Shown here one piece after another: positions 28,257-55,700 of a stretch of DNA of 64,000 bases. The translations under genes and the position numbers were made by a program. The notes under the pieces are model-generated. The model made no database searches. It saw only the letters and a program-made list of their open reading frames with translations, and had not been told where the DNA came from. Origin of the DNA: Ascochyta rabiei (lineage: Eukaryota; Ascomycota; Dothideomycetes; Pleosporales; Didymellaceae); NCBI RefSeq assembly GCF_004011695.2, contig NC_082418.1:1178001-1242000 (forward strand), given 5' to 3'. The first letter of the stretch is position 1. Each line of letters starts with the position of its first letter.

Positions 28257-30299
28257 TCACACATCAACCTTGTCGCAACCTTCGTCGTCATCATCCATGT
28301 TTCGGCGACTCTCTCGACGGATATACTCGTACCAGAACTTGTTCGCGTACCCAAGAATACACATCGCCAACGGTAAAGCACATAGTAAAATGGCGCATGT
28401 GATGCCGAACGTCTTGGGGCTGCGGTCAAACGAGAAAATGTCCTTTTCTGCGCCAAAATACTGTAATGCTAAGAAGAAGGGTGTTGTGATGAGGAAAAGC
28501 TGAAGAGGTCAACAACAAGCGGTGGATGCATTCTTGGGCTATACGTACTTGTACGTTGATTCGAGTGGTATGTGTGGTTGCCTCGGTTGCCTCAGTGCTC
28601 TTCCTGTTGAGTTTGTACATGCTGTGGCTCATGCGAACGGTCTTCAAGTTGTATCCTTGGGCTTGGCGACTGAATTCTCGCGTCTCTGAATTTGCAAGGT
28701 TGCTGTCGTGTTCAAGATGAAGAGAGAGCTTCAGAGGTGTTAGAAGTGCCCCCAGTTATGGAGGAGACTCACTTACAAGCCGTTGTGATTCGTTGCAACT
28801 CTTCTTCAGCTGAGACAATTTCTTTTTCAGGTCAGACATCTCCTCAAAAGAATTCTTGAGACTGCTTAGCATGCATATTACACGAGCATCTCGCATATCA
28901 GCAAAGTAGCCTCGGTCACCATCGTGAGCATTGAAGCGGGCCCAAAGTTGATTTGTTTTGGCGAACCTCTCATTTAGCTTCCGTAGGAGCTGCATTGTCT
29001 CGATGGTCCACTCGAACAGCTCTTCCAGCTCGCTGCGATTGCCATTGCCCGTGTCAGCTGAGCGACTGATTCGATGCTTGTCTTTCTACCCTTTCTGTCA
29101 GCTATGATGGTGACTTAAGAGAGTAGCACTTACCCAATCTTGCACACTTTCTTCGATGCTGAACACCAAGAATCTCCATTGTTGCAAGGCCATACGCACA
29201 CGGATCTCGACATTGCGCAACCAATACTTCCGAGGATCCCATTCTGGAGTGTTGGAGTCGACGACGAGACCTTCTTCCGGGCCATTCCCGTCTGCGGCAA
29301 AAAAATCCTCTTCCAGACCACATTCTTCCTCGTACATCGTCGGATCGCCCGGAGTATTTGATAAACCCCATCCCACCCATTTGTTGTGGTCGTGGCCACA
29401 GATGACGATTGAGATAGCTGCATCTTCAATGACGAACCGACAAGGCCCTTCATGACCTTCGGAGCACTCTATGTCAAGAAAGCTCAAGTCGGGCCATCTT
29501 TGCGTTACACTTTTGTCTTTGCAAGCCACATTATCCTTTGCTGTGCCACCACAATGCCGGAGAGTCAAGAATGGAAGATGAAACTCCAGTCGAAAGAAGG
29601 TAAAACCATCCAACTAAACGGCAAAATTAGTGTCTCAAGGTTATTACAAAAGGCTTTGTGCAGAAATCGTACCGGAATAATGACGCGAAGAGATGCTTCG
29701 AAGGCGATATGCTTCCAAATGGTCTCTCGTAGCGCCTGGACTTGGTCACTATGTGCGGTTCGCACGAGAGCCAGAACGTACTCCGGGGTCAGTCGGTGGA
29801 TATAACTGGTGGAATATCAGCTCATGTCAATTATTTGAGGCCATATCTTACATCAAGCGGCGATCTGCATTCTGATCCTTGTTTACTGGGCAGTTAAACC
29901 GCTACCAAAGTAAGTAAAGGTCTTGCGCAAAGGTTAGGAGTCGCACACCTCAACATCCAGGGATTCGCGAAGGGCCTGTGGAGTGAGCCATGGCGAATAT
30001 ATGCGCTTCAACTGAGAGTGATGATCCCGGTCGTCAAGCTTCGCTCGAGCCTGGTCCTGGTTCAAGGTTGCGCCTGGCTTCGTGGCCTTGAAGAAACGCC
30101 GAACGACACGGAGCTCCCATGAAGGTATGGTAGTTTCATACTCTTCAAAGAAAGATTCCACAATCTGTTTCGAATCCTCTGTTGGAATAGCTCGGGATCC
30201 AAAATAGAGCTTGTCTCTATAATCACGATCCTGGGAAAAGAGTTTCCTCCATCGTTTCGAAGCTTGGTTCCTTCGTGGTACTGCTAAACGCTTTTCCAT
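28257..30299 (-). CDS. Two-helix membrane protein, paralogue A (unknown function)
   Basis: Seven exons: 30299-29949, 29871-29852, 29805-29673, 29613-29134, 29085-28777, 28728-28549 and 28499-28257; 571 aa. It was assembled by alignment with paralogue B at 36.2-38.4 kb. The N-terminal half is soluble and contains LRETIWKHIA, LEFHLPFLTLR, DAAISIVICGHDHNKWVGWG and PRKYWLRNVEIRVRMALQQW. A charged helical region with coiled-coil character follows, then two hydrophobic helices separated by AEKDIFSFDRSPKTF. This order matches a large Pezizomycotina family of unknown function, often labelled CorA-like for its two C-terminal helices; transport activity is not shown. Exon 2 is only 20 nt and is the least certain part. 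Transcribed in the same direction as the zinc-finger genes upstream. Confidence 0.78.
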
Positions 30300-32062
30300 C
30301 TCACTCCCTTTGATGTTCCTGTTGGATGGTCTCAGTGTCTTACTGTAGGTATGTCTTGGTTGGTCTGATCGAACTGTCATTGATAAAAAAGTTTTGATGC
30401 CGAGGATTCCGCTATGTGTTGCAACGCCCAATACATGCTTCTGGCGCAGAGTCGTGAGCGTGCGCAAAGTTCTTTTGTCTAAGGTGTACGAAAGGATGGG
30501 TCTTAGATATTGCTTCTTTTGCAAAAAAATCGGTGGCTACTGCGTGTTGATGGCCTTACAGGTGAGCGTCTGCAACCGCTGCGGCTGCGTGAATCTCTGG
30601 CATGAGGAGGCTTATATCCATTGTCGAACTCAGCGCTCCATCTCTCGTCAAGGCTATAAAAGCTCTCTAATGATAACAGGGCTAGTTCCCTCTCGGAAGA
30701 ACAGCACGCCATAGAGTCCTATCAGCGAGCTGGAGTTGAGCGCGAGGCAAATTGGGCTCCTAGACAGCCACGTAACGACCCTTGAATGGAGTTACACGTA
30801 TTCACAATGTCGTATGCGACCTTAATCTCTGGATCTGCACATCATTTCTATGAGGCTGTGTTCTTCGGAGAAGGGCGAGGCTTTGACGACGCTCATGTAG
30901 CCCAGCGGTGTCGGCAGATGTGATGTTTACGATTCGCTACATCAGCGCCCAGGGCTTAAATGTGTTCGAAATGCGTGTAATAGAATGAAAACACGGTCAG
31001 GTGGCACATTTGCCTTCTCTTGCATGCTGTGGGAAATGAGTTCTCGTGCGTCACCCCGCAGAGAAGGACCTCGAGATTCGTAGGTGCCAGCACATCAAAC
31101 ACTCAAAATCAGTCATGCGCTTATGGTGTCCAAGGTATGGAACCGGCCCGCCCCAACTCTGCGCATGGGTTGATTTTGGTCGCGAATCAAAGAAAAGGTC
31201 GTCCCGAGAAGGCTGCGAATGGGGTGCCCGACGATAGAGCACGCGGCGCATCTACCCAATATGTCATCTAACAATCACACTGAACCCAAGAATGAAGACG
31301 ATGTAGGTTGACTTCTGTATGCGACTCACGTTAAACCACATGCTCGGGTCCGTTGGTTAGTGCCCCATGGACAAATAGCTGGGGAAATCCACTTCAGCCT
31401 TAATAAGGTGGAGCCCAACGGCCCGTAGCCACGTTGAGCTATATGCACCAAGTCTGAGATGATTGGACCAGGGTATGATTCGGCCTGCTCACCAGTAGTT
31501 GATAAAAGAGAGGTATTCATTGTAGCAGAATTCAAAAGAGCAAGCCCGGGACATGCTGAGAGACAGTGGAACGAGATTCAGATTTGTGTAGATCACGCAA
31601 TATAGATCACTGCTATTAGTCGCCCAATACGATTGGTCGTGAATTGAACCGGATGTCTTACACGGGAGCTTGACAAAATCAGCTACTGCAATTCATGACC
31701 ACATTAACCTCAAGTCCAATGGCTGCATATTGAAGTACTGGGGAGGCGCAAGGTCTCTTCAAACTTACATGAAAAACGAAATTGGGAGGTATACGCAGTC
31801 ATTTGGCTGTTGTAACTGCGCAGTATGAATAAGCAATCTTCAGCCAACCCCTTGTGCCTCGAAGTTGGCCCACGAACTTTTGGGTAAGACAACTACGAAT
31901 TACATAAGTACAAAAGCTAAGACAATCAGAATAACGTGCGAATGTACAATAGCTCTTGTGAAATATGACGAATGATTCCAAAGTTCGATAGAACAAATCC
32001 AGACGTCCATTGACTGGGGCATGGCGAAGAGGCTCGAGTCGAAAAGAGGAGTGTCGGAAGTC
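30300..32062. other. Intergenic within module copy 1
   Basis: Upstream of paralogue A and downstream of zinc-finger gene 1. A plus-strand frame at 30394-30714 has scattered cysteines but no pattern I recognise. I found no clear similarity to the equivalent gap in copy 2 by eye. Confidence 0.45.
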
Positions 32063-32328
32063 CTAACGCAGCGTGACTTTGGTGATGTGACAGTTGCCAC
32101 AGCGGGCGTACCCGCATGACGGGCATCCAGCGCTTCTATATGGTATAGAAGGGTTGCCACAATAGCACTGCGAGCATGTTAGGTACAGCAAACAGCAATC
32201 GACGAGTAATACTTACGCACTGCCACACATATGTGTGCCTCTTCTTTGCTGCCTGTGGATCGTTTGTAGTGTGAGCGTAGTACACCCAGTTTTACCTCAG
32301 GGCGGGTGACGTACCATTTTTTGCACAT
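32063..32328 (-). CDS. Small Cys-rich zinc-finger protein 1
   Basis: Three tiny exons, 32328-32296, 32252-32217 and 32167-32063, with introns of 43 and 49 bp, encode 57 aa. The core reads HTYVWQC|CYCGNPSIPYR, then CPSCGYARCGNC. Ligand spacing is W-x-C-x2-C-x11-C-x2-C-x4-C-x2-C; the first part resembles the RanBP2-type finger and the last CxxC pair is extra. The second intron falls exactly after the first zinc cysteine, as in the other three copies, which is strong evidence for a real gene family. The first exon (MCKKWYVTRPE) and its GTAAAA donor are less certain. Closest to copy 3. Confidence 0.72.
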
Positions 32329-33875
32329 GATTTTCAGATGCGTCAGATACGAGGGGAAATGTTCGGGAAGGAACGGGAGCGGCGTCCATCACTTTGGGAA
32401 GCCTTTCCAACCCTTTTGATAGGCATGTACGACCTCTGTGCATATCTGAATGGTCACACACACATGCGCGGTGGTAGACTTGGCAAATGAGACTTTGCGA
32501 TGGTATGCAGTGCGTTTGTATTTGCTGCTAGCTCACGCCTGCTGGCAGATGCGCAATGAGGTCAATACTCGTGTCTTTAGACGGCTATGGTCTTGATCTA
32601 AATACTTATATTAGCCAATTTGAATCGGAAACGCGGAAAGTTTTGATAGCTAACCTTCAGGCATCAATTTCAGGTCTCAGTGTGGAGTAGGGTTCGGACT
32701 AAAGGTTTGGATTTACCCCACAACTTTACGTCGTGCCAGGCCACGTCGATCCACTATCGCAGGGATGAGTAAATGAGGACGTCGATTCTGCTCTTTTGAC
32801 TACCGCAATATAGTGTCGAGTGAACATCAACACCAATCTGCTCAATCCAGAGTCTGTCAAGATGCAATTGCTCGAGAACAAGAAATTCATAAGATGGGCC
32901 CGTCACGAATATTCGGGCATTTGTGCGGCGCTCTACTCACTTTAAGTACACCCTTGGCCTGTAGCCAGTGCACAACCACTGAATCTCTCCATAGGGTCGA
33001 GGACCGTCCTTTTGTGAAACGTATTACCAGCATAGCTGTAAACATGATGCTTTGGCTCGCGCAAGCGAAGGCAACACGCGAATACTTCATCACACACTGA
33101 ATTAACGCGTGGCAGAACACCCGCTATTATGTCAGACAAGTGCAACTCGACCAGAAGTCCGTAACTATGCAGGAAATACAGTACTGAAACCTCTCAACAC
33201 GAACATTGCGGCGGCTTCTACATTGTGGTATGCATGGTCTGCTGCAGATATAATCAGCTCGTCATTCTCTTGTGTGGAAAAAAGCGCACACTGCCCACCG
33301 CACTTAAATGACACTCAAATCGTTTCGCCTAAGTCGTAAAAGCTAAGACAAAGAAGAGCAATAGCTGCACTATGAGTATTGGTTACCAACGTTCGTACTG
33401 ATTGCCCATTGGGGCAGTCATTCCAGAGCCAAGGACTGTACGAATCGAGAATGACCAATACCTCAGTTGTCGTAGTTGTCTTAGCAAATAGTCCCGCGGT
33501 ACAAAAACGTACTAGTAAAGAATACACAAATACGTGTAGATGTATCATTTGGGAATGACTGATCACTAAACCGCTAAGAGCCGTGAAGATCGATAGGAAC
33601 AATCAAGTTTGTCAAGGGCCTAAGATGGTGACAGTTCGGGTCACAAGCGCATTGGACCTGGAATCAGAGGCTTTTTAGGGATGTGCAGAAGCGCCTGTGG
33701 TACATCACCACTATTTGCAGCCAATATTTATCACGTAGAATAGATCTGGTGAGTGAAAGATCGTGTTGTAGTCTGACTCAGAGTGTGCCCTACTCGAACC
33801 TGGCAGTTGAGTCAAAGAAAAACCCAAGTCGTTGGTGGGGCAGTAAGCATTCTTAGTGCAGTTGGTTTCCGAAGC
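32329..33875. other. Intergenic within module copy 1
   Basis: Between zinc-finger genes 1 and 2. A minus-strand frame at 33315-33602 has a hydrophobic start but no splice or family support. No gene called. Confidence 0.45.
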
Positions 33876-34219
33876 TCAGGAACCTGATGAGGGATGGGTA
33901 CTAGATCTTTCATAGTGGAAAGCGTCCAGAGGCAGGAGTCCAGAAATCTGTTCTAAAGATTTTGGCACCTTTGTGACGTGGCATTCACCACATCGTCCTT
34001 TACCGCACGATGTACAGCTGTTGCTGCTGTACGGTATAGATGGTACGCCACAAGAACACTGGTATAAAGTCAAGATAGCTCTGGTCTTCAGAAAATTGCC
34101 GCGAAGATATAGTAACTCACACACTGCCAGGTGTACGTGTGCCCTGGCTTCTCACGAACGTGTGAGTAGCCCAATCTTATTTCGAGCTGTGTGGTGTCGA
34201 CGATCCAGGAATTTGGCAT
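33876..34219 (-). CDS. Small Cys-rich zinc-finger protein 2
   Basis: Exons 34219-34121 and 34058-33876, with a 62-bp intron (GTGAGT ... ACCAG), encode 93 aa. The core is HTYTWQC|CSCGVPSIPYS, then CTSCGKGRCGECHVTKV, with the same ligand spacing as copy 1. The N-terminal 33 codons are uninterrupted here, whereas copies 1, 3 and 4 have an intron before the HTY segment. The C terminus runs about 25 residues longer than in the others. Most diverged of the four, but fully open. Confidence 0.75.
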
Positions 34220-36234
34220 GTTTCAACGCGTGTCGGCTTTGATAATTCAGCTTGAAACTTTGCAATAGATATGGCTTGGCAAATGCTGCTATCGAGAGCT
34301 ACGTTTCGAATCGAGATCTCTCGGTTATCCTTGGGCAGATGAATCAGGATTGCAAACTACGTGCCTCCCTGTGGTGAGAACAACAGGGATGAGGGAGACT
34401 GAAAACAACAGACTAGAACAGTTATGACAAAGAAAGAATGTATGATTTGCTGCAGCGATTTGGCAAGTCAGTCTGGCGAGAAGTGACTTGGTCGATGTTG
34501 GAGGTCATTACTCGAGAAGAGAGCATCCTAGTGGGAAGGTATAGAAAAACGATTCCCTACTACAGTGTTATTAATATAACGCACCTTGGATCGATATCTG
34601 ATGTCTCGGTCAGCGAAGTTACAATGTCACTCGATGTTTGTGACTCAATGTGAACTTAACCAGGGGACGACAACTTCCAGACAAGCACTTGTGGAGCACC
34701 TAATTCGAGATGTTTCGTTACAATACATCACAAATCCCTTGTTGCACACCGGAAGGCCTGTGGTCCCTTGTACGCCACTTACGTAGATTCTCAACAAGCC
34801 TCCGGTGTCACAAGACCCAAGTAAATGAGGTGCCAATTCATCAACAAGAATACCAAAGATTCACCGAGCGCAGACTAGAGATATTCATGCCAAAGGAATT
34901 GTCATGCGCACGGCGATCGATCGAATCCGAGATCCTCATGTTTGATCGTTCACGTAAGACGTTAATCACACTGGCGTGATTGTCGGTCGCCTAAACATCG
35001 TGAACGCATCGTCTCAAAATCAGTCCCAAGTTCTCAATGCACTGAGGCTCGCATAGTCAGTTCTGAAACGGAGTATCTCGTGAAGCGATGCCAGGGTCCA
35101 GAGCGCACGAACTTGTACGAGCGCGTCAACTTTCGGATTTACGCGCAAATTGGCTGACAGATACTGATATTACACCGATCAAGACGACAGATGAGTTCTA
35201 ATTCCCATTAATACGGTCCTCATTCGGAATGAAGAAAAATCCTGTGCACCTGAGACTTTGGGGTCCCTTGCAGAATGTACAATTCACAGGTTGATGATCA
35301 ACGCGTCAGGAGGCTTCGGAGCATTTGCTTGTCCGACGGGCGATGCGCCGAAGCAGAAATAACCAGGTGTCCTTCTGCTCTTTGAGGATCACGTCTGCAA
35401 GATGGATCTCGAGGCTAACAATGGAGGCCAGATCATCATCTCCTCACACTTAAGCTTTGGTTTGTCTCTGTGAATCGTCATTACCTCGACATTGATCTCG
35501 TTTGGCAGGTATATCAATGACGCATCTGCAGCTTTCTAAAAAAAAAAAAAAAAAAGGTGCCTGGAGACATGTAGCCGTGTCTGAGAACTACTTCACGCGG
35601 GTAGGTAGATAATTAGCTAGTATTCTGTAGTTGTTACCCTTTGCCCTCCACGCTGTCCTAACCTATCGTTTTCACTGCTAACTAGCTATAGCTAGCCATT
35701 CAGAACCTCTCGGTTGTCTATGATGTATTTTTGATCGTAGCCGTGCGAATCTGGGGTGGGTGTAGTGAGCCTTTGCACCTAGAGGTTATCGAGTCTTCTA
35801 TAAAGTGCTAATGTACTAGAGAGTTCACGACAGAATCTGAACCTACCCTGCGATTTTGTAAATCCATCTTAGGCCTAATCGTCGCTCAGCCTCGTCTTGA
35901 CTTGTCTGTTACGCTGCAGGTGAGAAGCCTCGAGTCGTGCAATATCTTCCCCGCATCCGTCATAGACGCATGTGCAACCCCATCAATTCTTGCCAGCATT
36001 GGTAACGCAATAATTACCGGATGGTACACTTTGGGTGATTTCAGTAGTTGATTAACTCTAGCTTCAAATCACGTTCGATGATCATTGAGTATTTCTCCAC
36101 TACAGAACTGAACGGCAACAAGGTATTGTGAGGTTGTACAAAAAGAAATACAAAGAAGAGACAACGTTACAAGAATATGAAGAGGACAATCAGGAGTATC
36201 ACGTGCCACTAAACAACTGTGGAATCATCAGCTG
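34220..36234. other. Intergenic between the two module copies
   Basis: AT-rich, 2 kb, with no convincing coding frame. It holds an 18-base A run and a 14-bp perfect palindrome, CTAGCTATAGCTAG, at 35682-35695. This is the junction between the two copies. Confidence 0.5.
35538..35555. repeat. Poly(A) run, 18 bases
   Basis: An uninterrupted run of 18 A on the plus strand, in sequence without a gene. It could be the tail of an old retrotransposed sequence or simple slippage; no flanking gene remnant is visible. Confidence 0.8.
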
Positions 36235-38384
36235 TTACGACTGGGCATGCGGTACAGTTGTGTACTCACTGACAGCACCTTCTTTGTCTTCAGGTCCAGT
36301 TTTGCCAAAGATCCTTCGAATCAAGTTATCCCAGGTTCGATTGAGCAAGCTAAGAGCATAGGTCAGGATGGGTAGGGCGAAAAATAATACACAGACAGTG
36401 TAGCTAAAGGTTTTGGGGTTGCGCTCGAACGAGAAGATGTCTTTCTCTGCACCAAAATATTGCAGAGCTAGTATGACGGGGGTGGTGATCAAGAACATCT
36501 GCATGTTGATGCGTGTGGTACGACTCGACTCGACTGCTGCAGCTGTACTCTGACGATTGAGCTTGGCTGTCTCTTGAGTAATAGTGATTTTCTCAAGATT
36601 GACTGCATGGGACCGAAGACTGAGTGCCTGGCTCTCATTGTTGATCTTCTTCCCCATGGAGAGCGTGAGCTTGACGAATATTAGAACTTGCCTTTTTCTG
36701 TAGATTTTTGGAGGAGCTTACAATCTTCTCGGCCTTCTCGCAAGTCTTCTCTAAGGTTTGCAGCTTTCGTTTTAGGTCGACCAGGCATTCGAGGATCCTC
36801 TTGTGGCTAGTCAGAGCTGATATAGCCGAAGCTTCCTGCAGATCAGAGAAGCAATTCCTGTCGCCGTTGAACCGATCCCATGCTCGGATTGAGTTTCCGA
36901 GGTTCTCATTGAGCTTTCGTAACAGCTCGATCTTCTCCACAGCCCGATCAAGCAATTCCCCCAGGCGATTATGCTGGGTGGTCTCCAAATCCTTGGTTGA
37001 GAAAAATCGGTTTTTACTGACCTACACGTACGTCAGCAAAGCTACGATTTTATGGGTGGCAAACAAACCCAAGCTTTGATATCGGCTTCTGTACTTCGCA
37101 CAAGCCACGTCCACTCCTTGTGCACAATCTGCATACGAATATCTACAGTCTGCAACCAATACCGTCGAGCACACCAGATTGGTTGTTCCAAATTGATGGT
37201 TCGACCATCTGCGGGCCCTTCGCCATCGGTAGACACATAGTCTTCCTGATATATATCAAATTCTTCCGAGGGCTCCTCGTTCCGTGTGGTGGGGTCCAGA
37301 TGAGTGTTAGAAAACCCCCAACACACCCACTTCGAATGGCTCCAACCGCATATCACCACAGATACGTGCGCTTCCCGGATCACATACTTACAAGTCCTCA
37401 TGTGCTCATGGCACTCAATATTTAATGACGCCATCTCCGGCCACGCATCATCAGGACTCCCGTCTGAGGTTCGACCTCGGAGTATGCATTCTCGTAAGGT
37501 AAGGAAGGGCATATGGAACTCCAAATGGAAAGTGGTGAAATTGTCAATCTAATGCATGTGTCAGGATTTCGTTGCCGATTTTTCTGAACGACTTGTCTAC
37601 TCACAGGAGCCTGCACGCGCACCAAAGCCTCACCAGCGATGTGCTTCCATATGGCTTCTCGAAGTGCCGCCTGCTGATGATAGTACGCTGTTTGAAGGAG
37701 AGCCAAGATATATTGGGGGCAGAGACGGTAAATGTATCTGTTCAACAGTCAACGCATGTCTCTCAGGTATCAGCTCAGTGTTGGAAACAAAGATATACGA
37801 GCTAAATTGAATACTTACACTATCTGGCGATCAACATCCAAGAATTTAAGTGCTTTCGATTGGACTCCAGACTGTTCCTCGGACTGATCTCTAGATTGAC
37901 CTGCGGCTGGTGCTTCAAGCCAACCCTCGGACTCATCTTCTAACGGACCTATAACTGGCCTCTCATGCTCAAATCGCTAATCTTGTCAACTCATGTGCAA
38001 AAGAAGGTCTGGTAGCCGTACCTTCTCGTTCAGATACCGATATAGATCAGATGGCGTTAGCCACTCAGGACATCTGCGCTTTGTTCCTCGTACAAGACCA
38101 CGAGCATCGAGCTTGGCCCGGGCCTGTTGTTGTTGCGTCCCTGTAACGTTTCTTGCATAGGTCCGGAAGAACTTGCGCACAACGTAGATGTCCCAGGATG
38201 GTATGGAACTCTCGAAATCTACGAAAACTTCCTCAAGGATATCTGGCTCCTTCAGCAATATAGCTGCTCTGGTTTCAAGAAATCGGAGATCTACGAACCG
38301 CCGATCATGGGTTGGCCATTTGAAGTTTTGCTGCCGAGAAAGCGCTCTGTCGCGCTTTCGCATCGTATTCTCGAGTGTAGCCAT
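36235..38384 (-). CDS. Two-helix membrane protein, paralogue B (unknown function)
   Basis: Six exons: 38384-38022, 37940-37819, 37737-37605, 37548-37069, 37021-36722 and 36669-36235; 610 aa. Exons 3 and 4 have exactly the same lengths as in paralogue A (133 and 480 nt). Shared blocks include SSIPSWDIYVVRKFFR, LREAIWKHIAGEA, LEFHMPFLTLR, AHVSVVICGWSHSKWVCWG and ARRYWLQTVDIRMQIV. Two helices lie at about 524-540 and 554-575, separated by AEKDIFSFERNPKTF. Unlike A, the segment from TTRINMQ into the first helix is continuous, so one intron differs. Exon 2 is 122 nt (Ser/Gln-rich) against 20 nt in A. The donor of intron 4 is GTTTGT, unusual but placed exactly as in A. An alternative 3' splice after GCTGTCA could change the last eleven residues. 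Confidence 0.8.
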
Positions 38385-39685
38385 CGTGATAAAGTCGAGG
38401 ATGATTGGAATGAACGTACTTCTGACTTTGACTTACTTGAAATTGCTTGTCAGGATTGTTGTCTTTGATATTTGAATCGATCAAGACGATATTTCAAAAT
38501 ACATGCTCGTAAGTTCCTTAGTGCTAAACTTTGGACGTCACTGCCCCACGTTCGAAGAGCTCAACGCTAACCAGACCTGTAGGGCGTGTGGTGAGAGAAG
38601 CAAAGAATATTTTCAACACATGGAGCGTATAGTTTATATCTTCAAGAGAGTCCCGCTCGAACATTCGATCTGCCTATTCGCGCGTCGTGAAAGCTGCAGA
38701 GCCTATCAACAAGCAAGCGCGTCAAAGGTGCAAGCTTGTGCAGTCATATTCAGACACGTAGTAGCTTACCGATAGACATACATGAACTGAGAATTAGTCC
38801 TTCGCGTACACCACGAAGGAGGCTATGTTACCACTCAAGGCATGCCTCTTCTTCAGCGACAGTGGCCGATGTGCCCTGTCGAATCCAGATCATTCAATTC
38901 GTTGTGTTCAGCTTCGAGGCATAATAACGTTAAGATGAGACCTTCCAAATGTGGTAAGCAGACGAGTCTGCCTTGTAGACTGTGTTTAATTAAGCCTAGT
39001 TGCATCATCCTGCATGAAGGACTCTACGTCTGCATGAGCCAACGCACCGAAATGTGCAGGACAGTTATGAGCCCATAACCTCCAAAGAGACACCTGATCC
39101 GACACTGATGGATGCGTGGTTATCTTGGCCTGATCTGGGGTAGCAGTACGGTCGAACAATCGCGCAGTCGACGGGGCACGTTGCCGCAAGCAATTGCAAC
39201 GCGGAATCGATGCTGTGATGCCTGGTATCATCTCAACGAAGCGAAATTATCGTCGTGACATAAGCATCTGGCATCAGATATGGCAAGGCTTGGGTGGATC
39301 CAATGGGCAGATGACACGTCGGCAGCCCAGCGCTCTCCTGCTCTACATTTTCCCTCCAACCAGTCCAGGAAGGTGCGTCTTGGAGAGAACTTAAAAACAG
39401 GAAATTTTATTGCATATTGGTATAGGAAGACTCTTTCTCGCTAGACTGTGGACAATAGCTGGTTTTCAGAAAGCACATCTTTCGTCTACCCTGTATCAAA
39501 AAATAGCGCGCCGTACGGACGAAGTGATGCGAGCGAATTAATGTTGAATTGCTGAAAACCAATGTGACGATGTCATGCTGCAAGGCAAGATTCAGTCAAG
39601 GAACATTGAAGACGTTCTGCGACCTCATCTGAGTAGAGCTCCCCAGGAACGCTACTGAGCGATGCTCATCGGTGTTCGCCTTGGC
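38385..39685. other. Intergenic within module copy 2
   Basis: Upstream of paralogue B, downstream of the broken zinc-finger gene. A 10-bp inverted pair (TGGTTTTCAG at 39460, complement at 39552) is visible but too short to call. No gene seen. Confidence 0.45.
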
Positions 39686-39984
39686 TCAGCGAATTGTAAC
39701 TTTCGTTATGCAGCAATCGCCGCAGCGAGCATAGCCACACAGCGGGCAACCATAGCTTCTATATGGTTGGTATAGAGGGGTAACCACAATAACACTGTAG
39801 GCTGATTAGTCTGCGCTCGATAAAATGTTTGTACTACCAGTCTTACACATTGCCACACGTATGTGTGTTTCTTTTTAGCTGCCTGGTAAAAGAAATTCCA
39901 TCAGCCGAGTTTTGAGTCCACGAACGATTTACTCACGAATGTCTGTTTAGGAGTAACTGTTGTAACAGCTTCTGATGTCGCCAT
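39686..39984 (-). pseudogene. Small Cys-rich zinc-finger gene 3, frameshifted
   Basis: Same three-exon plan as copies 1 and 4: 39984-39937, 39882-39847, then a third exon from 39794, with introns of 54 and 52 bp and intact splice sites. Exon 2 (AAKKKHTYVWQC) is nearly identical to copy 1. In exon 3, after CYCGYPSIP, a 4-bp insertion relative to copies 1 and 4 (ATACCAACCATATAG against ATACCATATAG on the coding strand) brings in a stop at 39761-39759. The rest of the finger, including four of the six cysteines, is out of frame up to an old stop at 39688-39686. The remaining sequence is well preserved, so the lesion looks recent. A truncated 40-residue product is possible but lacks a zinc site. 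Confidence 0.7.
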
Positions 39985-41643
39985 GGCTGATGTCGATAGG
40001 GGAACCACGGTTGGTGTCACCTACGCATCCATATCCCCCACACCTATAGTGGACCTTTCACGCCTCATTTGTAGATTCCATCCCCAGCTGGTCCACCAAC
40101 CCAAGTAACGACGAAAATCCGCAATGACGTATCTTTGGAGAGAATGCGCTCGATCTTGACACCTTGCGTATGGCCTGACGCGAGGTGACTAGGTCCGGTC
40201 CAGGCCGATCGTATGCTATAGCTCGTTAACAAAAGACCGTTTACACCTCATCACGATATATAGGAACGGTAGTGTACTCGGTATTCTGCTATCGTACACC
40301 GCCCCAAGTCTAAGGTTTAGCGCCCTTATCAAAGTGGAATTACCTTCGCATTAAGTGCACTTTTGAAGATAAGGGTAGAGGAGTCTGCGCTTAACAAGAC
40401 TTCGCTCCTTTGCTAACATAAACTTACAGTATTTTTTTTGCAATTAATTAACAGAATCTCACTCCTAGTACTCCTGCCACAGGATGTAAAAGCCTGAGTT
40501 GTCAACAAACAAAATTGATCGACGTTTTGATACGTGAACAGACCAAGAGCCAGGACTTGCACAGCTCCACGGACAGCGGTATGCAACGTGCACGCCCAAA
40601 ATGATATCAAACAGGCGATCAATTTTGTTTGTTGACAACTCTGGTAAAAGGTCTTCCGTTCACGTCTTTAATCTGCTGCGAGCACATGTTAGTAAGAAGT
40701 ATGGTATAAAGACTAGGGAATGATGTGAGAGCCATCTGTTACATATATACTTTTCGGTGGACATACCGAGTCACAGGACGCGATGCTAGCTGCAACGACG
40801 CGGAACAAGTGCGTAGGAATTAACAACATGTCCAACGTAGGGAAAGGGGCTCGGGATTCACCTCAAACAAGGAGCGATGAGTTTTTTGGAGTGGAGAATT
40901 TAGTCAATACCACTTGCTCTTTATACGGTTGGAAGGAAACTGACAGCAGCAGATTCAGCGTGGGTTTTTATCCCAGTGTTGAGATCGTGTCGCAGCAGCA
41001 GGGGAAGTACATAGTGTCCAACCCTTTCCTTCAGGCAGTAAAATTCCAAGGACACAACTAACAGAACGGAGAATATACGCCTACCGAACAACCAATGTCA
41101 CGGAGCTAGGCGTCGTGGAGTCCGATGGTAGGTTTACCGACGAGGCGAAAGCTTTGCGGTCGAAAATCCAAGGGATGACGAAGTATCTGCATGAAGATGA
41201 ATTGTGAACCCCAGAAAACTTAAGATTGGGCACGGCTCGTAGCGCACAGACATGATCATTGAATCTGTGCCTAAGAGGTTGTTCTACTCTTCATAGTACC
41301 ATTGGCGCTTTTGCCTCATACTGTGCACCTATGCAGTAGAACGTCGCCAAGCAAAGTGAAGATGAAGGATATATCACTCATTTGTCAGTGGAAAATGCTC
41401 TTGCGAAGTGGTTGATACATGAGTTGTTGATGGTAAAAGAGCAGCCCGGCCAGGTGATCTGCTCACAAAACCAATCGTCCGTACATTTGTTGGTTGTAAG
41501 CTTGATCTAGTCCTGCTACGGTCTCCGATCAGATACCCTTGAGCACCAAACAAGTAACTTCGGTTTTGTGGAATTATCAAGGCCAGAGTTCGAATTGAGT
41601 CAGAGAGTTTGGTAGTTTGGACATGGCTGAGCCGTTTGATCAA
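39985..41643. other. Intergenic within module copy 2
   Basis: Between zinc-finger genes 3 and 4. It contains the MITE-like element at 40.5 kb. A plus-strand 92-codon frame at 40783-41061 has no homologue I recognise and no support beyond being open. Confidence 0.45.
40493..40644. mobile_element. MITE-like element, 152 bp, with target duplication
   Basis: Terminal inverted repeats of 28 bp (40493-40520 and 40617-40644) match at 27 positions; the outer ends are CCTGAGTTGTC and GACAACTCTGG. The inner flanks keep weaker inverted similarity (GTTTTGATA against TATCAAAC). The element is bounded directly by TAAAAG on both sides (40487-40492 and 40645-40650), a likely 6-bp target duplication. It has no coding capacity, so it must depend on a transposase elsewhere. 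I cannot assign a superfamily. Confidence 0.8.
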
Positions 41644-41935
41644 CTATCTCACTTGGATCTTCGAAATGTTACAATTCTCACAGCGTGTATAGCTACATGA
41701 CGGACAAAGATTGCTTCTGTAGGGTATGGAGGGGTATCCGCAATAACACTACGAGTTTCAGCTAATACCTCTTTCTTCAAAGTATTCTCGCTTGGGCTTT
41801 ATACTTACGCATTGCCAAACATAGGTGTACTTCTTCTTGTCTCCCTTATCATGTCAGTAACCTCTAAAGGCTGTGGGACCAGTCACTTACAGGGCATGCA
41901 ACGCTATCGCTTTCTGACAGTACTCTCGTATACAT
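41644..41935 (-). CDS. Small Cys-rich zinc-finger protein 4
   Basis: Exons 41935-41891, 41844-41809 and 41748-41644, with introns of 46 bp (CTGAC branch, AAG acceptor) and 60 bp, encode 61 aa. Exon 2 encodes GDKKKYTYVWQC and exon 3 begins CYCGYPSIPYR, then CPSCSYTRCENC. All six cysteines and the Trp are present and the frame is open to a TAG. Intron positions and phases match copies 1 and 3. First gene of module copy 2 in the direction of transcription. Confidence 0.75.
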
Positions 41936-45703: not shown

Positions 45704-48700
45704 TCACGCGTCTTCAGGAAGTATACGCGCAAAATGCTTCTCCCAAATCCAGCCAACCGTTTTTTTCGAATCATCTTGGTTGCGTGCCAGCCACAACTCG
45801 CCTTTCATACCGATGACATCGAAAATCTCGCCGGGAACGTAGACAAGATACGGAATTCCGCCTTCGCGACGGTCGTGTGCAATGTTAAACTCGAAGAGAC
45901 TTGCAGCCAGGAAGAGAACCTCAGGCTCGTCGGTGTCGCCAGGGGTGATGGGGAGCTCTTCAGCACTACCGCGCATAGGAGTTTCAGACATCGGCAGAGC
46001 TGAGTTGAAGACACCGGACTGGCGAGTCGAGCCTGGTAAGGAAGGAGGTTGAGAGTTCGGCGCGGACATGGTGAGCATGCTCGATTGTGTAGGCGAGAGG
46101 AAAGAAGCGCCAAGTTGCGGTGGGAAATCAAAAACACTCGCAGTAAAGGAAGAGCGATCGTCAAAGTCGACGACGCCATCCATGCCTAGGTAATTGTGGT
46201 TTCTCGAACGAGCCGAATTGCGACGCTCCTGTTGAATGATGGTTGCTTCGCTGTTATCGGAGACTGCGCTGAGCGCTCGAGCTTCACGGCTGGTCGTGGG
46301 AGCCAAGTTGTTGCGAGCCGAGGAATTTGTGTTCTGATAGAGAGATGGATAGGCTGGACCTGCAGGCGAGGAACGTGGGGGTCCGTCCATGGAGCGCATG
46401 TTAGATCGTGTACCATAACCGCCACTGTTGCGATTCCGTGAATCAAAAGCAGATACGTCACTGCTCATGGATTCAGTGCGCCGAGACGAAGAGTTGCGTC
46501 CCGAGCCCGCGCCATCAGACGGCACGGGTGATGTCATGCTTGAAATCTCCTTCAGCAGCATGTGACTGTTCGTAATGCCAAAGCTCTTCGCCCTCTGCTC
46601 TTGCACGTTATAGTCGGACTTGAAGCGCTCCGTGTATGACTTCAGATCGTAGTCTATCGAAGTGGTGTGCTGTGGTTCGGTGTCCAACAGCGGGAGGATC
46701 TTCTTCGAGCAAGTCTTGTACCAGTCTTTCTGTAGGGCCATGAACAGAGTCATCACATTTCGCATGACACCCTTTGTCTTTTCGTAGAGTATGGGCAGCT
46801 CGAGTTTCAGTGTGTCGTTGATTGTTGTGAACTTCTCCGCCGATGACACGATCTCCGGGTCGGGTTTCTCGCCACGATCAACAGCCTGTTTGTGCTTGAC
46901 GTAATAGAGTAAGAACTTCTTGCGCTGTTCTATAGTCTTCTGGTAAGATACCCACATCTCCCAGAGATCTGAGATTGGCTTCAGCACACGACCGCGGACA
47001 GCGGCTTTCTAAGTTCAAGTCAGTACAGCCATTTGAAGTACATTTCCGGATACCCACGTGTTCTTCAAGAGCTTTGTTCTGGAGCTCAAAATGAGCCATA
47101 GCCCACTTTCGCCATGTGCTTTCAATCTCCGGGTTGACCGAGGGAGCGACCTCGCAGACAGTAATGAATCCTAGGAAGACGATGTTGAGCTGTAGATAAT
47201 GCTCAGTGATTGACTCGAGGTAGTTCTCAAAGTCACGCATGACAATTTGGAGCTGGAAGAAGTGACCACCAAACTTTTGTTCTTTAGACTTGTAGTCTTG
47301 GTCCTTGAACATCTTCTCAGCTTCGTCATACGTCTTCGTCTTGTCTGCCTTGGGGATGAAAGCTTTTACGAAAGCGTTCCCAAGCCCTTTCCCTTTGCTC
47401 TTCTCTTTCTTGCCTTCTGAAGTCGCAGCCCGGAAGGTATCCGCGCGCTTCTTTGCGTCATTGATACGTCCACTGATGGCAAGAAGGTCGAGGCGGGCCT
47501 TGTTGATGTTCGCCAGATCAGGGTGGTCCGCATCGGTGACTTGCTCGAGGGATTCGAGAAGTAACGGGTACTTCAACAAGCGCTGTGCTGGCTTTACAAG
47601 TAAAGAGTCAAGATCCCAGGCCTGTGTCATATTCTCAACTTGTTCAAAACACGCAACGACCCACCCGGTGAGTTCCGGGTTACTCTGGTTCTTCTTGATG
47701 TACGCGTGTTGGTTCTGCGAATTGAGGTAGTAGGTCGTATACAGTCGTTCCATTTTCTCCAGATTGTCGAGAAAGACTCGGCCGATCGAGGTTTGATGAT
47801 CGTTCTCTAGCGTGCAGTTCTCGAACTGGTTGAACTCGTCGGACCGAAGGTTTGCTGGCAACTCTGCAGAGCCGAAAGATTTGGAGTCGGTTGAATCGCG
47901 GCTCCAGGGACCTGTCGGTGGAGGCATGTCATGGTTGACAATGGGTTTTGCCGCTTTCTTGAACGCTCGAAATAGCGAAAGTGAGAACTTCTCCAGGTCT
48001 TTGCAATTACTGAACAGCGCACGCTTTTCTTTTTCTGTCATGATACTGCCAGCCGTCGCCTCGAAGATGTTGTGAGCGATCATCATGTCTATACAGAATT
48101 GATGCTCTGTTGTCAGCATCTCCTCGAGAATCCGATAGCGCTTGTTCAACGCTTGCTTTGCTGGGTCTGGGGGAGTGTCTCCAGGCGCTGCCGGTGTTTT
48201 TTGTTCCGGCATGTCAATCTCAGGTAGTGGTTTGTCACTAATCTCTACCGAATCTGATGCGCTATAGGGACCATCGTAATGTCTGTCGTGCGTATGACCA
48301 ACGGGCGTGTGCGCACGCGCAGGATGTAGCTCAAAACGCTCGTCGGTCTGCAATGCAGGGGACGGCCGAGCGTGCGCTGAAAAAGTATATGAGGGGAAGG
48401 AAGGCGAAATCGGTGACAGCTCATCAATAGACTTGGGAGGCGGAGGTGGCGGCGGCGGCGAGTACACGGGCCGTGGAGGATGCTGAGCCGTCGGTGAGGG
48501 GACTGTAGGTGAAGGAGGCATATAGTTGTTCATGGAAAGGCCAAGACCTCCATTGGTCCATGCAAGCTGCGGCAAATCAAGCCCGTTTGTCGAAGGTGAC
48601 GCATTGTTGTACGCTGTATTTGGTAACAAGGTTTCCTGAGACGGATTGCCGAAGGAGCTGCCTGACGGGGATGCATCTTCCTGTATGAGTGTGGTTGCCG

Positions 48701-51506
48701 ACCCTTGAGAGCCACGAGAGTAGCGGTGTGACTCGGGAGGGAAGACGAAAGCCGGTATCTGGTTGGCAGGATCTGGCGAGGGTTTGCTCGCTTGATATAC
48801 GTTTGGCGTGAGAAGTGGCAAAGATTGTTTCTCGCGAGGAGTTTCGTTGGCGTTTCCCTGATCTGATTCGTTGGCGTCACTTAAGATCTGTGCTAGGTAG
48901 GTTTCTGTGACCTCTTTCGATGCCCAATCCGGATGCTGCGCTATTATGGGCGAGACCTGCTGAACTCTTTGTCTTGAAAGAGAAGCTAATTCTGGCGAGA
49001 TGACTGGCGACTGGTGATAAAGATTCAGCACGGAATTGATAACGCTGTACATATCGCTTTTAGCATGTGAGGGTCTAGCTGATCGGTACGGGGCGACGCT
49101 GATCGAGTCATCTGGGTGCAGCGAGTCGCGGTTATAAAAGGAATCTGTGGGCAAGTCCTCTCCCTTGAAATGAAGTGCAGGTAGTAGAGTCTCATGCCCA
49201 TACACCTGCACCGAACGTCTGGGGGGAGGGGGAGGCTGCGTGTTTTCTTCCTGTGGCTTTGGAGCGCCGTTTAGATCGGCGGGCAGATGCTCATTGTTGA
49301 ACATGATCGGTATCGATTCTCTGACGCCCAGTATCGACTCTTCGACTGGGGGTAATTCGGGGGCTTGCTCGCTACCAAGTGCACGGAATACAGCTGGTCG
49401 GAGTAGCTCCTGTTCGTGTTGAGATTCTCGCGTATACTCCTGCTTAGGCTCCAGTTCAGGTTCACACGTAGTCTGCTGCGTCTGCGCTTCTTGCGACTCT
49501 TGCGACTCTTGCGGAGCTACCGGAGGGGTCAAAACGAAGCTGCCAGGAATGCCCAGTGTTGGAGACTCGTCGAAATCTGTCACCGCAGACCACGGCTGCG
49601 TAGGTGGCGGTATACCCAGGCTAGAAGTTTGCAAACTCAGCGACTGCTGGCGCCTTGGAGATAAGGACTGGGTGTCCTCCTGTGGATGCTGAGTTGGAAG
49701 CGGTTCGGTGTCTTGCTCATGCGGAAAAAGCACGCTTGGCGAGAAAGAGAAATTCAGGGTCTGAGATTCACTTTCACTATCCAACAGTCCCAGTTGGCTC
49801 GCCAAAGGGTCTGGTTTCGGGTGAAGGTGGTCGGCCAGTGAAAAGTACTCACGTTCGCCATGCGAATCGGGTTGCGCATTCGGAGACTGCAACGGTTGTC
49901 GTTCTCTTGAATTACGCAATCGTGGGGAGGGCGGTGGAGGTGGGGCAGTCACGACTGCTGGTACGCTGGGCCCGGTCCTTGCGGGAGATTTCCCTCGTTC
50001 TCGATATCCACGGTAGGCTAACGCAGGTAGCGTAGCATGATCCGCACCGTTGGTCTTTACGGGTGTGGTACCTCCCACTGGGTTTCTGCTCATGTTGCGG
50101 TTCGGGGAGGATCGGTTGCTGCGAGTGGGTGTGTACTTGACTGACTGGGCTGTAGAGCTGGCCTCTGACGCGTTGCTCGACCGCCGTGAGCGCTGCGACA
50201 TGACTGGTATTCGAGAAGGTGGAGATTGGCGCGGTGGGGACTGTAGAGACCGCGAGGGGGGTCGTGACTGTCGTTGTCTGGTAGAGGTTGTCGTGGCATT
50301 GCTCTGTGAGCGCTGGTGCTGTGGCGAGGCAAAGGTGGTTGCAGGGAGTTGGGTCTCGTCAACCTGTGTGTCTTGAGCGTCGTTGGCCGGGGGCAGAGGG
50401 ATCTGTGCGGCTTGTGCGGCTTCTTCGCGGGCTGCGCTCGCGAACGTTGGAATCATGTATCCTGGCAAGGTCGCGTCCTGCCCACCTACGATTTCCCCAA
50501 AGAGCTGTCGCGCGCTCGAAGACGCGCGTTGGAGGCCAGGCCGTCGATTCGGCGAAGAGATTGACTGCTGTGATGGCGAGGTGACCGAGTGTCGTGTCGG
50601 CGAAAGGGTCTGGTCGATGCTGCTTCTGCTTGCATGGCTTGCGTTTGTTGCGCGTCGTGCTGTTCGTGGAGGTGACGTAGGTGCGGGTTGCGTTCGTTCG
50701 CGTGGCTTGAGGTTGTTGAACTTGTATGATCCATAGGTGGCTTCCTTGGAGTTGCGCGACGCTGACGCCGACGCCGACGCAGACGCAGGCGAGGACGTTG
50801 GGGCGACGTGACGCTTGACGGGGTCGTGTGCTCCAGCTCGCGTGGGCTCCCTCGACCGCGCGCGTATGACAGAGGGGATGACATCGCCGCCCGGCGAGCG
50901 CTCGAATCGTTCGGCGAGGGCCTTTACTTTGTTCGACGCCTGTGGGGGCGAGCGTGAGGAGGCGACCGAGGAGGCGGGGCCAGAGACGGAGCGGGCGGTG
51001 GCTCTCGGGGGCGAGCGTATGTTGGTGGAGCTCGCGATGTTCTGGCGCTGGCGGGCGACGTGCATGTCGAGGGGCGGCACAGGTATGGGGGGCGCGGTGG
51101 CGGCTTCGTGCTCGGTCATGGGCGTGTAGGCAGACTTGTAGTAGTCATCGGGGGAGGGGCTGTCTGGCGCGTCGTCGGCACGGCGGTGGTGGTGGTGGTA
51201 GTGGAGGTGGTGGTGGTGGTGCTGCTCCTGCTGCTGTTGTTGTTGTTGCTGTTGTTGTTGCTGGTGGTGGTGCTGGTAATGGTGCTGCTCCTGCTGCTGC
51301 TGCTGCTGTTGTTGTTGTTGTTGTTGTTGTTGTTGCTGCTGCTGCTGTTGTTGTTGTTGCTGCTGGTGCTGGTGCTGCTCCTGGTCCTGGTCCTGGTCCT
51401 GGTGCGGCGGCGGCTGGTCCAGGTGCTGCTCCTCAATGCCGGCCAGCGACATGGACTGCACCCAGCTGGCCACGGCCGGGTTGTATGCATAGTTGGGCTC
51501 GGCCAT
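45704..51506 (-). CDS. RhoGEF-BAR-SH3 protein (Tuba/Gef1-like), polyglutamine N terminus
   Basis: Exons 51506-47058 and 47008-45704 across a 49-bp intron; 1917 aa. Residues about 25-105 are almost pure Gln/His. A disordered Ser/Pro region runs to about 1110. A Dbl-homology domain follows at 1119-1360 (RILEEMLTTEHQFCIDM ... SLLVKPAQRLLKYPLLLES), then a BAR-like helical domain at about 1375-1640 (FFQLQIVMRDFENYLESITE, ENY and LEEH segments; the splice joins ALEEH to KAAVRGRVLKPISDLW). A C-terminal SH3-like domain closes at about 1846-1917 (LAASLFEFNIA ... GWIWEKHFARILPE). DH-BAR-SH3 is the layout of DNMBP/Tuba and related fungal Cdc42 exchange factors, so a role in polarity or septation at membranes is likely by inference. 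No PH domain was seen after the DH, as in Tuba. Confidence 0.92.
51182..51420 (-). repeat. Coding CAG/CAA and CAC repeat (Gln/His tract)
   Basis: The tract runs through the first 110 codons of the RhoGEF gene. The longest uninterrupted Gln run is in the middle, built from mixed CAG and CAA; a His-rich block is on the C-terminal side and Gln-Asp repeats on the N-terminal side. Mixed codons show it is under protein-level retention as well as slippage. Confidence 0.93.
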
Positions 51507-52747: not shown

Positions 52748-55700
52748 ATGAAACGGAAGTGCACATCCCACGCGGCTGGCTCTCGCAAGAAGGCGCACCT
52801 CGTTGACCAATCTGCGAGCGCCACACCAACAGCCATCCAACAGCCTGTCTTGCAACACTTCTATCCCCGACTGCTTACACTGCGCCACTACCTCTTGTCA
52901 CAGCTGCCCAACTCATCCAAGAACAGACGTCGAAAACTGGCCGAGCTGGGCCTGGCAGCCGCGACCAAGACCGCTGCAGCGTCAACATGTGATCCTGACT
53001 ACGAGCTTGGACAGCTGCTCGATTCCACTGTGATCGGTCAGCAGAGCATGGCAAAGACGGACAACCAGCAACAAATCACAACAGAGCGTAACAAAGACAT
53101 CGAGGCTTTCATTCAGCAGCTGTCGCCTGCCATCACCGGCGGCACCTTCAAGCCAGGCTATTTGCTGCAATCCGAGGTAGGTCTTGTCGTGCAGTGACAT
53201 GTCTTCGTGTGCCAAAACATACACAGGCGGGTGCTAAGAAGCACAGATTGTTGACATCGTGATTTGGCGCCTGTTCAAAAGGTCTTCGTCCCACAAGATT
53301 CGCCATCTGATCTGCCATGGCTTTGAACGATCCGGATCAACGTACCGTCAAAATGCTCTCGACAGGGACAACAGTTCCTCGATACCTGGCCTGGTTGCGC
53401 GCTACCCTAACAACTATGTGCGTACACTGAAAGGGCCGCTATGGTGTCGACTACAAGCTGTCCTTGGCGAAGGCGGTGATCGAATCATGATGGACATGCT
53501 TATGGACTGCGCTATATTCCGCCCCGTCGACGGGACCTTTTCAAACTACCATCAGCTGAGCGGTCCTCCCATATTCGACTTGAAGCCTTGTGTCCCTCTG
53601 AAGGAGCCTGCAGCAGAACCTCTATCGATGAATCCCAGATCGAGACAACCTTCGGATTCCGCCAGCGACTACCGAACACTGTGCAAGATAGCCTTTGTGC
53701 GCAACCGAATGTTGTATGCCAAACCTGCTCTAAATGGCAAAGGTGGTATCACTTTCGGCATGCGCCATATCCGTCCGTGTGCTCCTGAGGTCCATGTGGT
53801 CTTCATAGCTGACACGACTTACAGACGTGCTGAATCGTTTTTCCCGCCGAGAAGACAAGCAGCAGGTCATTCAAATTATGAGATATATATTTCCACGACA
53901 GTTCGGCTTGCACAATGTCTTCACTTCCAAGGTCGACGCGCGTGAGACGGCAATGCCACTCAAAGACTATACCTTGCGAGAGAAGGAGATTCACCAAGGC
54001 ATGTGCCGAGACTTGGGCGACAAAATTCACAACCCAAATGAGGTGGCCAAATGGAAGTTACGTGTACCAAAGAGGCTACGAGGCGATGTGGTCTTGATGA
54101 TCGAGAAGCTCCGCATACTCAATCAGAGATGTTCGTATGCAGAGATGCTACGCCACTACTGCCCAGTCGAGGTATGTCTTCATACAAGATAGGTGCGGAA
54201 TTGAAAACTGAAAAACCCCAGGCTTTACCTCTATCGTCAAATCCAGTGTGGAGGAAGTCTCATCTTCACCTGAAGTATGCTACCACGGAATCCACAGGCG
54301 TTGCGAGCAGAAGGAAGAACCACGCTATAGCTCAAGCAGACGAGCAATCGAATGAGGAGGCATGTTTTACAGACATGGCCTGTCCCACAGCAAACGTATC
54401 TGCGTTCTGCAGAGCTATTGTCTCTAAAGTCATCCCAAAACGCTTTTGGGGCGACAAAGACATCAAGCGTACAATCATGCATTACATTGATCAGTTTGTG
54501 AGTTTACGGAAGTTCGAGACATTGACGCTGCACCAGGTTACACAGAAGCTGCCGGTACGTACCATCCAAGTTTTGGTTCATTCCGAAACTGAGACATCAC
54601 AGATTACGAGTCTTGCGTGGCTCCGGCTTCCTGGTCAAGACGAGACCGCCAAGCTAGCGCGGTCTGACTTTGAAAAGCGCAAGGAGATCCTTCAAGAATT
54701 CGTGTATTGGCTCTTCGATTCATTCCTGATACCCCTGATCAGATCGAACTTTTATGTCACAGAATCAAATGCTCACCGCAATCGACTATTCTACTTCCGA
54801 CACGACGTTTGGCGAATGCTCGCAGAGCCGTCGCTATCGACCTTGAGACTGAAGATGTTCGAGGAGATGCCGACAGAACGCGCGAACAAGCTCCTGGCTG
54901 TTCGTCCACTCGGCTTCAGCAAGATACGCCTTCTGCCGAAGAAGCAAGGTATTCGCATGATCATGAATCTGAAACGAAAACTACAAGTGACGCGATATGG
55001 CGCCATGACCCTCCAAAAAAGTATCAATGCGGTCATGGCGCCTGTCTTTCATGCCATTACATATGAAAAGGTCTGTAGTCGACACGACACGACACAACAC
55101 AAGTATATTGTCCTAATCTGTGGCAGACCCTTCAACCCGAGAAGTTCGGCTCCTCGCTGTTTTCAGTGGGCGATATGTTTCCGAAACTCGAGGCATTCAA
55201 GAAATGGTTACAAGAACAAGGGTTGAGTGGCAGGCCTCTGTACTTCGCCAAAGTTGACGTCCTGTCTTGCTTCGACACCATCCCTCAACAACGTCTGTTG
55301 AGTATGATGGACAGCCTCGTTCCAGCGCAAGCATACCAGACAGGTAAGCATGTAGAAATCAGTCCAATGGGTGCCTTACAGCGTCTCGACGGTCAGCACG
55401 TCAGTCCAGCCCCACTGAAGCGCTGGGTTTCGCATACCGTAGCTGCCAACGACACACAGTCATTCAGCCAGCTTGTACAAAACAAGCTGGTAGGCTCGAA
55501 GAGCAACACCATCTTCGTTGACGCGAACTTGCAGCAGCAAGAGACAAAAGCTAATCTGATGCATCTACTTGGCGAGCATGTAGAGCGTAATCTTGTCAAG
55601 ATCGGCAAGCGCTTCTATCGCCAGAAGAGGGGCATTCCACAAGGCTCGATCCTGTCGAGCATCCTGTGCAACTACTTCTACGCTGAGCTTGAACGTGATG

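Follow-up and report, generated by a model that had tools for sequence, protein, structure and literature searches.

Two linked sets of zinc-finger and CorA-like membrane protein genes in Ascochyta rabiei: a putative old duplication and a plausible partnership

Why should a fungal chromosome carry, twice in succession and on the same strand, two small zinc-finger genes followed by a gene for a membrane protein? This arrangement occurs in Ascochyta rabiei, a fungus of the Didymellaceae that causes chickpea blight (genome of 40.9 Mb in 23 contigs), within a window of 64,000 nucleotides (C14:1178001-1242000), by which we mean the whole stretch of DNA analysed. Our tentative preference is for an old tandem duplication that left two linked gene sets, with a membrane protein of CorA/Mrs2/ZntB type, zinc ribbons resembling RanBP2/NZF fingers and, as the favoured reading, a regulatory partnership between them.

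Two blocks on the minus strand

The six genes follow one another in the order zB1, zB2, memB, zA1, zA2 and memA and form one block at 41.9-36.2 kb and another at 34.2-28.3 kb, both consisting of zinc finger, zinc finger and membrane gene:

41644..41897, minus strand: zB1, small zinc-finger gene, 47 amino acids in 3 exons, with tblastn expect values (E) down to 2e-20
39686..39984, minus strand: zB2, small zinc-finger gene with a broken frame, from sequence and tblastn
36235..38384, minus strand: memB, 6-exon membrane protein gene, spliced model of 622 amino acids
33876..34219, minus strand: zA1, diverged zinc-finger gene with a longer tail, 93 amino acids
32063..32389, minus strand: zA2, open zinc-finger gene, 71 amino acids in 3 exons
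28257..30299, minus strand: memA, 7-exon paralogue of memB, spliced model of 573 amino acids

The gaps measure 1660 bases (zB1-zB2) and 1302 bases (zB2-memB) in one block and 1487 (zA1-zA2) and 1764 (zA2-memA) in the other; coordinates and splicing agree with the original prediction for this locus, according to which the blocks match in order, strand and spacing. All introns of memA and memB are GT-AG and their frames are open, with exon lengths (memA/memB) of 351/363, 26/158, 133/133, 480/480, 309/300 and 180+243 versus a single final exon of 435, so that exon 2 is very unlike in length and memA has one additional intron. The public record of memB is EKO05_0008363 (P0001; A. rabiei, 613 amino acids), which differs from our model at the C-terminal end only; memA has no public protein record among the nine homologues found, P0001 being the sole A. 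rabiei row. Reading frames are open in three of the four zinc-finger copies (zA2, zB1 and zA1; the 7-base first exon of zB1 and the first exon of zA1 were placed by eye). The earlier claim that frames are mostly preserved stands for memA, memB and these three genes but not for zB2, whose last exon is thrown out of frame by a short insertion.

The six-gene stretch, flanked by an arginyl-tRNA-synthetase-like and a transporter-like open reading frame (ORF; names given by eye), has a GC content of 46-48% versus about 55% around it and a TA/AT ratio of 0.71-0.80 versus 0.61-0.62. Strong repeat-induced point mutation was rejected as the cause of the low GC content because the rise in TA/AT is mild by the usual thresholds.

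Age and unit of the duplication

The age of the arrangement was approached through the membrane proteins, for which a search of public proteins, scoring the 7,996 candidates with the most shared words, recovered the nine homologues of memB. Seven of these entered a phylogenetic tree with memA and memB (P0001, being memB's own record, and P0008, a near-copy of P0009, were left out); the tree is midpoint-rooted only and carries a long-branch warning for Lizonia and Alternaria. memA and memB are not sisters: memB is sister to the D. exigua and B. exigua proteins with support of 100/99, and a clade of memA and memB is rejected by the approximately unbiased (AU) test (p 0.00026). memA groups with P. 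nodorum at low support (39/48), and its identity amounts to 43% with P. nodorum, 42% with D. exigua and 39% with memB. With a root outside the memB group, the split of memA from memB would predate the divergence of Ascochyta, Didymella and Boeremia.

memA and memB are identical at 239 of 611 aligned columns (39%; BLASTP E 2e-142), and 147 of the 242 identical residues among aligned codons are encoded by a different codon. Alignment of the two blocks, a check that came with the original prediction, yielded six nucleotide matches with E < 0.01, all of them exonic to within a few bases. A tandem duplication of recent, species-level origin, as the adjoining of two similar blocks might suggest, is exceedingly improbable in view of the 39% protein identity, the restriction of significant nucleotide matches to exons and the AU rejection. 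We favour an old duplication instead.

The same tree is compatible with an old duplication and with separate arrival alike, so the tree check proposed earlier, once run, established that the copies are not sisters and left both histories standing. Separate arrival of memA and memB, with memA acquired by transfer, for instance, or derived from an older dispersed paralogue, would account for the rejected clade and for memA being as near to P. nodorum and D. exigua as to memB. We nevertheless regard it as unlikely: the blocks are alike in order, strand and spacing and largely in their exons, a duplication before speciation followed by loss or missing annotation of the A copy elsewhere predicts an identical tree, and memA itself is absent from the protein rows found despite its presence in the DNA. 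In the A. rabiei genome, a six-frame search with memB gave eight matches, all within the memA and memB loci; our genome searches scored the best candidates only, so that diverged copies can escape them.

Whether all three genes were copied together is a separate matter. Nucleotide identity among the zinc-finger genes is highest for zA2-zB2 (0.74), followed by zA2-zB1 (0.70) and zB1-zB2 (0.69), with zA1-zB1 tied for lowest (0.57); zA1 has an identity of 0.57-0.61 to the other four copies. The two copies next to the membrane genes are thus the most alike, as had been claimed, by a weak lead over the next pairs, and the signal from the zinc-finger pairs as a whole is weak and mixed. Duplication of the three genes as one unit is possible but unproven because the outer zinc fingers, zA1 and zB1, fail to pair; an old tandem duplication of membrane and zinc-finger genes is the part of the original proposal that fits.

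Linkage and its possible meaning

The case that zinc fingers and membrane protein act together is plausible but thin, and its basis is linkage in one genome and one suggestive gene model from B. exigua. In the latter, membrane record P0003, the protein is extended at its N-terminus, and the extension includes QTLASKKKH, which resembles the zinc-finger exon 1/2 junction. The first 165 residues of P0003 score 60 against the zinc-finger family, a value reached by 0 of 500 shuffles (maximum 55) and 0 of 130 control segments (maximum 51), while the N-termini of P. nodorum P0005, A. alternata P0008 and P0009 and Lizonia P0007 score at the control level (28-44). A gene predictor may have joined the start of a zinc-finger gene lying upstream to the B. 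exigua membrane gene, but the match is no more than suggestive. A separate B. exigua zinc-finger record, P0012, lies on a different contig from P0003 and is therefore uninformative on linkage in that species; between the eight zinc-finger and nine membrane public records, no length of the longest contig was shared.

Of the ten matches that the zinc-finger search gave in the A. rabiei genome, seven belong to the window. A further match is on C20, and the two on C2 are weak (E 0.0035 and 0.014). The C20 copy is a relic whose second exon is interrupted by an in-frame stop (by eye). It lies around 6160-6420 of stretch L019, where ORFs are few. The C2 stretch (L020) holds two adjacent genes, at 4278-4643 and 6506-6883 on the plus strand, with distant versions of the zinc-finger cysteine pattern, and one of them has two such cysteine modules.

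Several results weigh against a partnership. In the 9.5 and 9.9 kb around the zinc fingers on C20 and C2, tblastn with six membrane-family proteins found no membrane gene (best E 0.05). The extension of P0003 lacks the cysteine core, and its match leans on a lysine-rich run. No 8-mer is shared by at least four of the six upstream stretches of 600 bases, and those present in three stretches number 5, where 100 shuffles in blocks of two bases lead one to expect 3.4; a promoter motif common to the six genes was accordingly rejected. It may be that the genes are only neighbours, an old local duplication having copied a gene-poor, lower-GC stretch with little rearrangement, and that the proteins act independently. 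The missing membrane gene near the relic and the two distant relatives, the absence of a common upstream 8-mer, the lower GC content, the loss of one of four zinc-finger copies and a linkage known from the neighbourhood of a single genome all speak for this, to which we give a serious if less than even chance. It sits less well with the preservation of block order while the membrane proteins diverged to 39% identity, and with the zinc-finger-like residues that open the B. exigua membrane model.

No publication on a pairing of such zinc fingers with such a membrane protein was found among the titles and openings of abstracts listed, including by locus tags and by 'CorA-like' in Pleosporales. 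In the parts of PMC11893274 consulted, none of the positions on ctg14 falls within this region, if ctg14 is C14.

Three repeats accompany the genes, none with an assigned strand:

40493..40644: 152-bp repeat resembling a miniature inverted-repeat transposable element, with terminal inverted repeats of about 40 bp, between zB1 and zB2; dispersed family
35617..35764: dispersed repeat of about 150 bp downstream of memB, 21 places in the genome
27893..28042: dispersed repeat of about 150 bp downstream of memA, in opposite orientation to the copy at 35617..35764

The first occurs in full or almost in full at 15 places genome-wide, including that at 40493..40644, and 12 of the 14 others are 91-96% identical; the 21 places of the second family count both window copies. 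As members of dispersed families (21 and 15 places genome-wide), these repeats were rejected as the boundaries of a block that was duplicated or is mobile. The window also contains telomerase reverse transcriptase-like ORFs at 54051-56167 on the plus strand (reverse transcriptase motifs by eye) and a large RhoGEF-like ORF at 46878-51506 on the minus strand, in which a very long tract of glutamine and histidine lies close to the start (by eye). Neither structured RNAs (Rfam gathering scores) nor tRNAs (tRNA finder, bacterial code) were detected in the window.

Protein folds and known systems

The zinc-finger genes share a core of W-Q-C-C-x-C, C-x2-C and C-x2-C. Differences between the last exons of the three open copies fall mostly at codon position 3 (between zA2 and zB1, 11, 4 and 20 changes at the three codon positions, of 35 each), which points to constraint. 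A protein search with a single sequence returned nothing; a search with an alignment returned eight rows at E <= 10. We discounted P0017 (E 2.3) as a chance match, which leaves seven homologues. Those named come from Boeremia, Stagonosporopsis and Pyrenochaeta, all Pleosporales. In a structure model of P0013 (predicted local distance difference test (pLDDT) 83.5), the predicted core superposes over 25-26 columns at 0.7-0.9 A on fingers of TRABID NZF1, Nup153 and ZRANB2; the Foldseek E values for RanBP2/NZF fingers (4.7-9.7) are no proof alone. The Pfam RanBP2/NZF family matched none of three window proteins (zA2 whole, zB1 and zA1 minus their first residues; E <= 1) and none of the seven homologues (E <= 10). 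The best sequence-profile matches in the PDB were eL40 (E 0.016) and GATOR2 MIOS (E 0.032), both marginal, from a list of 14 that extends to E 10.

The nine membrane protein homologues are all from Dothideomycetes, eight from Pleosporales with Lizonia unplaced, and one of them (P0002) was named 'Cora-domain-contai...' by its source. P. nodorum P0005 bears a long N-terminal extension (residues 1-340), possibly a neighbouring gene fused by the predictor. A structure model of the membrane protein, of low confidence (pLDDT 45), has its elements in the CorA order: beta strands, long helices, a helix at 442-551, a short loop and a helix at 563-599. A CorA chain ranked first in Foldseek and CorA, Mrs2 and ZntB chains recurred in the top rows, none of them significant. 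A simple hydropathy cut placed a segment like the second transmembrane helix (TM2) in 11 of 11 sequences and both transmembrane segments in 6 of 11. The GMN motif is absent from all 11 membrane sequences checked, P0001 included; hhalign, given a profile built on seven CorA fragments out of the 17 loci listed in the A. rabiei genome, set the QYFG segment on FGMN (P 0.006, probability 6%). Pfam CorA (PF01544) matched neither memB nor memA nor any of the nine homologues at E <= 1; by contrast, 13 of these 17 loci, none of them within the window, pass the Pfam cut-off. Across Pfam as a whole, neither the membrane proteins nor the zinc fingers reached the threshold of any family. NCBIfam gave a sub-cut-off hscB match for P0001 (E 0.086) and none for P0002, P0004, P0012 and P0013.

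Under the reading that we tentatively prefer, an old tandem duplication would have produced two linked gene-set copies that both survived. The membrane protein would most likely be an oligomer of the CorA/Mrs2/ZntB structural type. Its predicted fold starts with a large soluble N-terminal domain, perhaps a sensor of some signal; a stalk helix of great length then continues into the first transmembrane helix (TM1), and a short loop leads to TM2. The GMN selectivity loop would have been lost, with a conserved QYF segment in its place; given this loss, the protein probably conducts a substrate other than Mg2+ or serves as a sensor or anchor. The zinc fingers would be soluble, strongly constrained proteins whose N-termini vary. 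They would most likely serve as adaptors that bind protein, ubiquitin or RNA, and we favour the view that they regulate the membrane protein as its partner. That the locus might represent an undescribed two-part fungal module, in which a GMN-less CorA-shaped protein is controlled by a dedicated, highly conserved zinc ribbon from a neighbouring gene for sensing or self/non-self responses, is a more distant prospect.

Less probable still is a fast-evolving recognition or defence module with a CorA-like, membrane-damaging executor under zinc-finger control, by analogy with bacterial type III CRISPR, for which the parts of PMC12255297 and PMC10600005 consulted describe a CorA-family effector activated by SAM-AMP. 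Divergence, duplication and the absence of GMN would suit such a role; Pfam, however, matched no known recognition domain.

If the pairing is real, it would be a first point of entry to the GMN-less, CorA-shaped proteins of these fungi and would supply a candidate for their regulator. Regardless of the pairing, the analysis uncovered memA, which the protein search had missed, together with very small zinc-finger genes, and revised the proposed tandem duplication to a probably old one.

Compared with known systems, the zinc fingers are predicted to be RanBP2/NZF-like ribbons: they share the core W-x-C-x2-C-x11-C-x2-C, and the predicted core superposes. They differ in a spacing of 11, in place of the 10 of the RanBP2/NZF consensus, in lacking its central Asn, and in an extra C-x2-C after the core. 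The zinc ribbons of eL40 and MIOS are the top profile matches, and the cysteine spacing of MIOS is similar in the alignment. The membrane protein is unlike the CorA/Mrs2/ZntB family (PF01544) in its lack of GMN and of a Pfam match and in the restriction of the homologues found to Dothideomycetes. It is like that family in the predicted succession of beta strands, a long stalk helix that enters TM1, a short loop and TM2, in its recurring, non-significant structural matches and in a weak profile alignment at the transmembrane segment. Rather than file it as a member, we regard it as a protein that resembles CorA and may work like a CorA-type protein.
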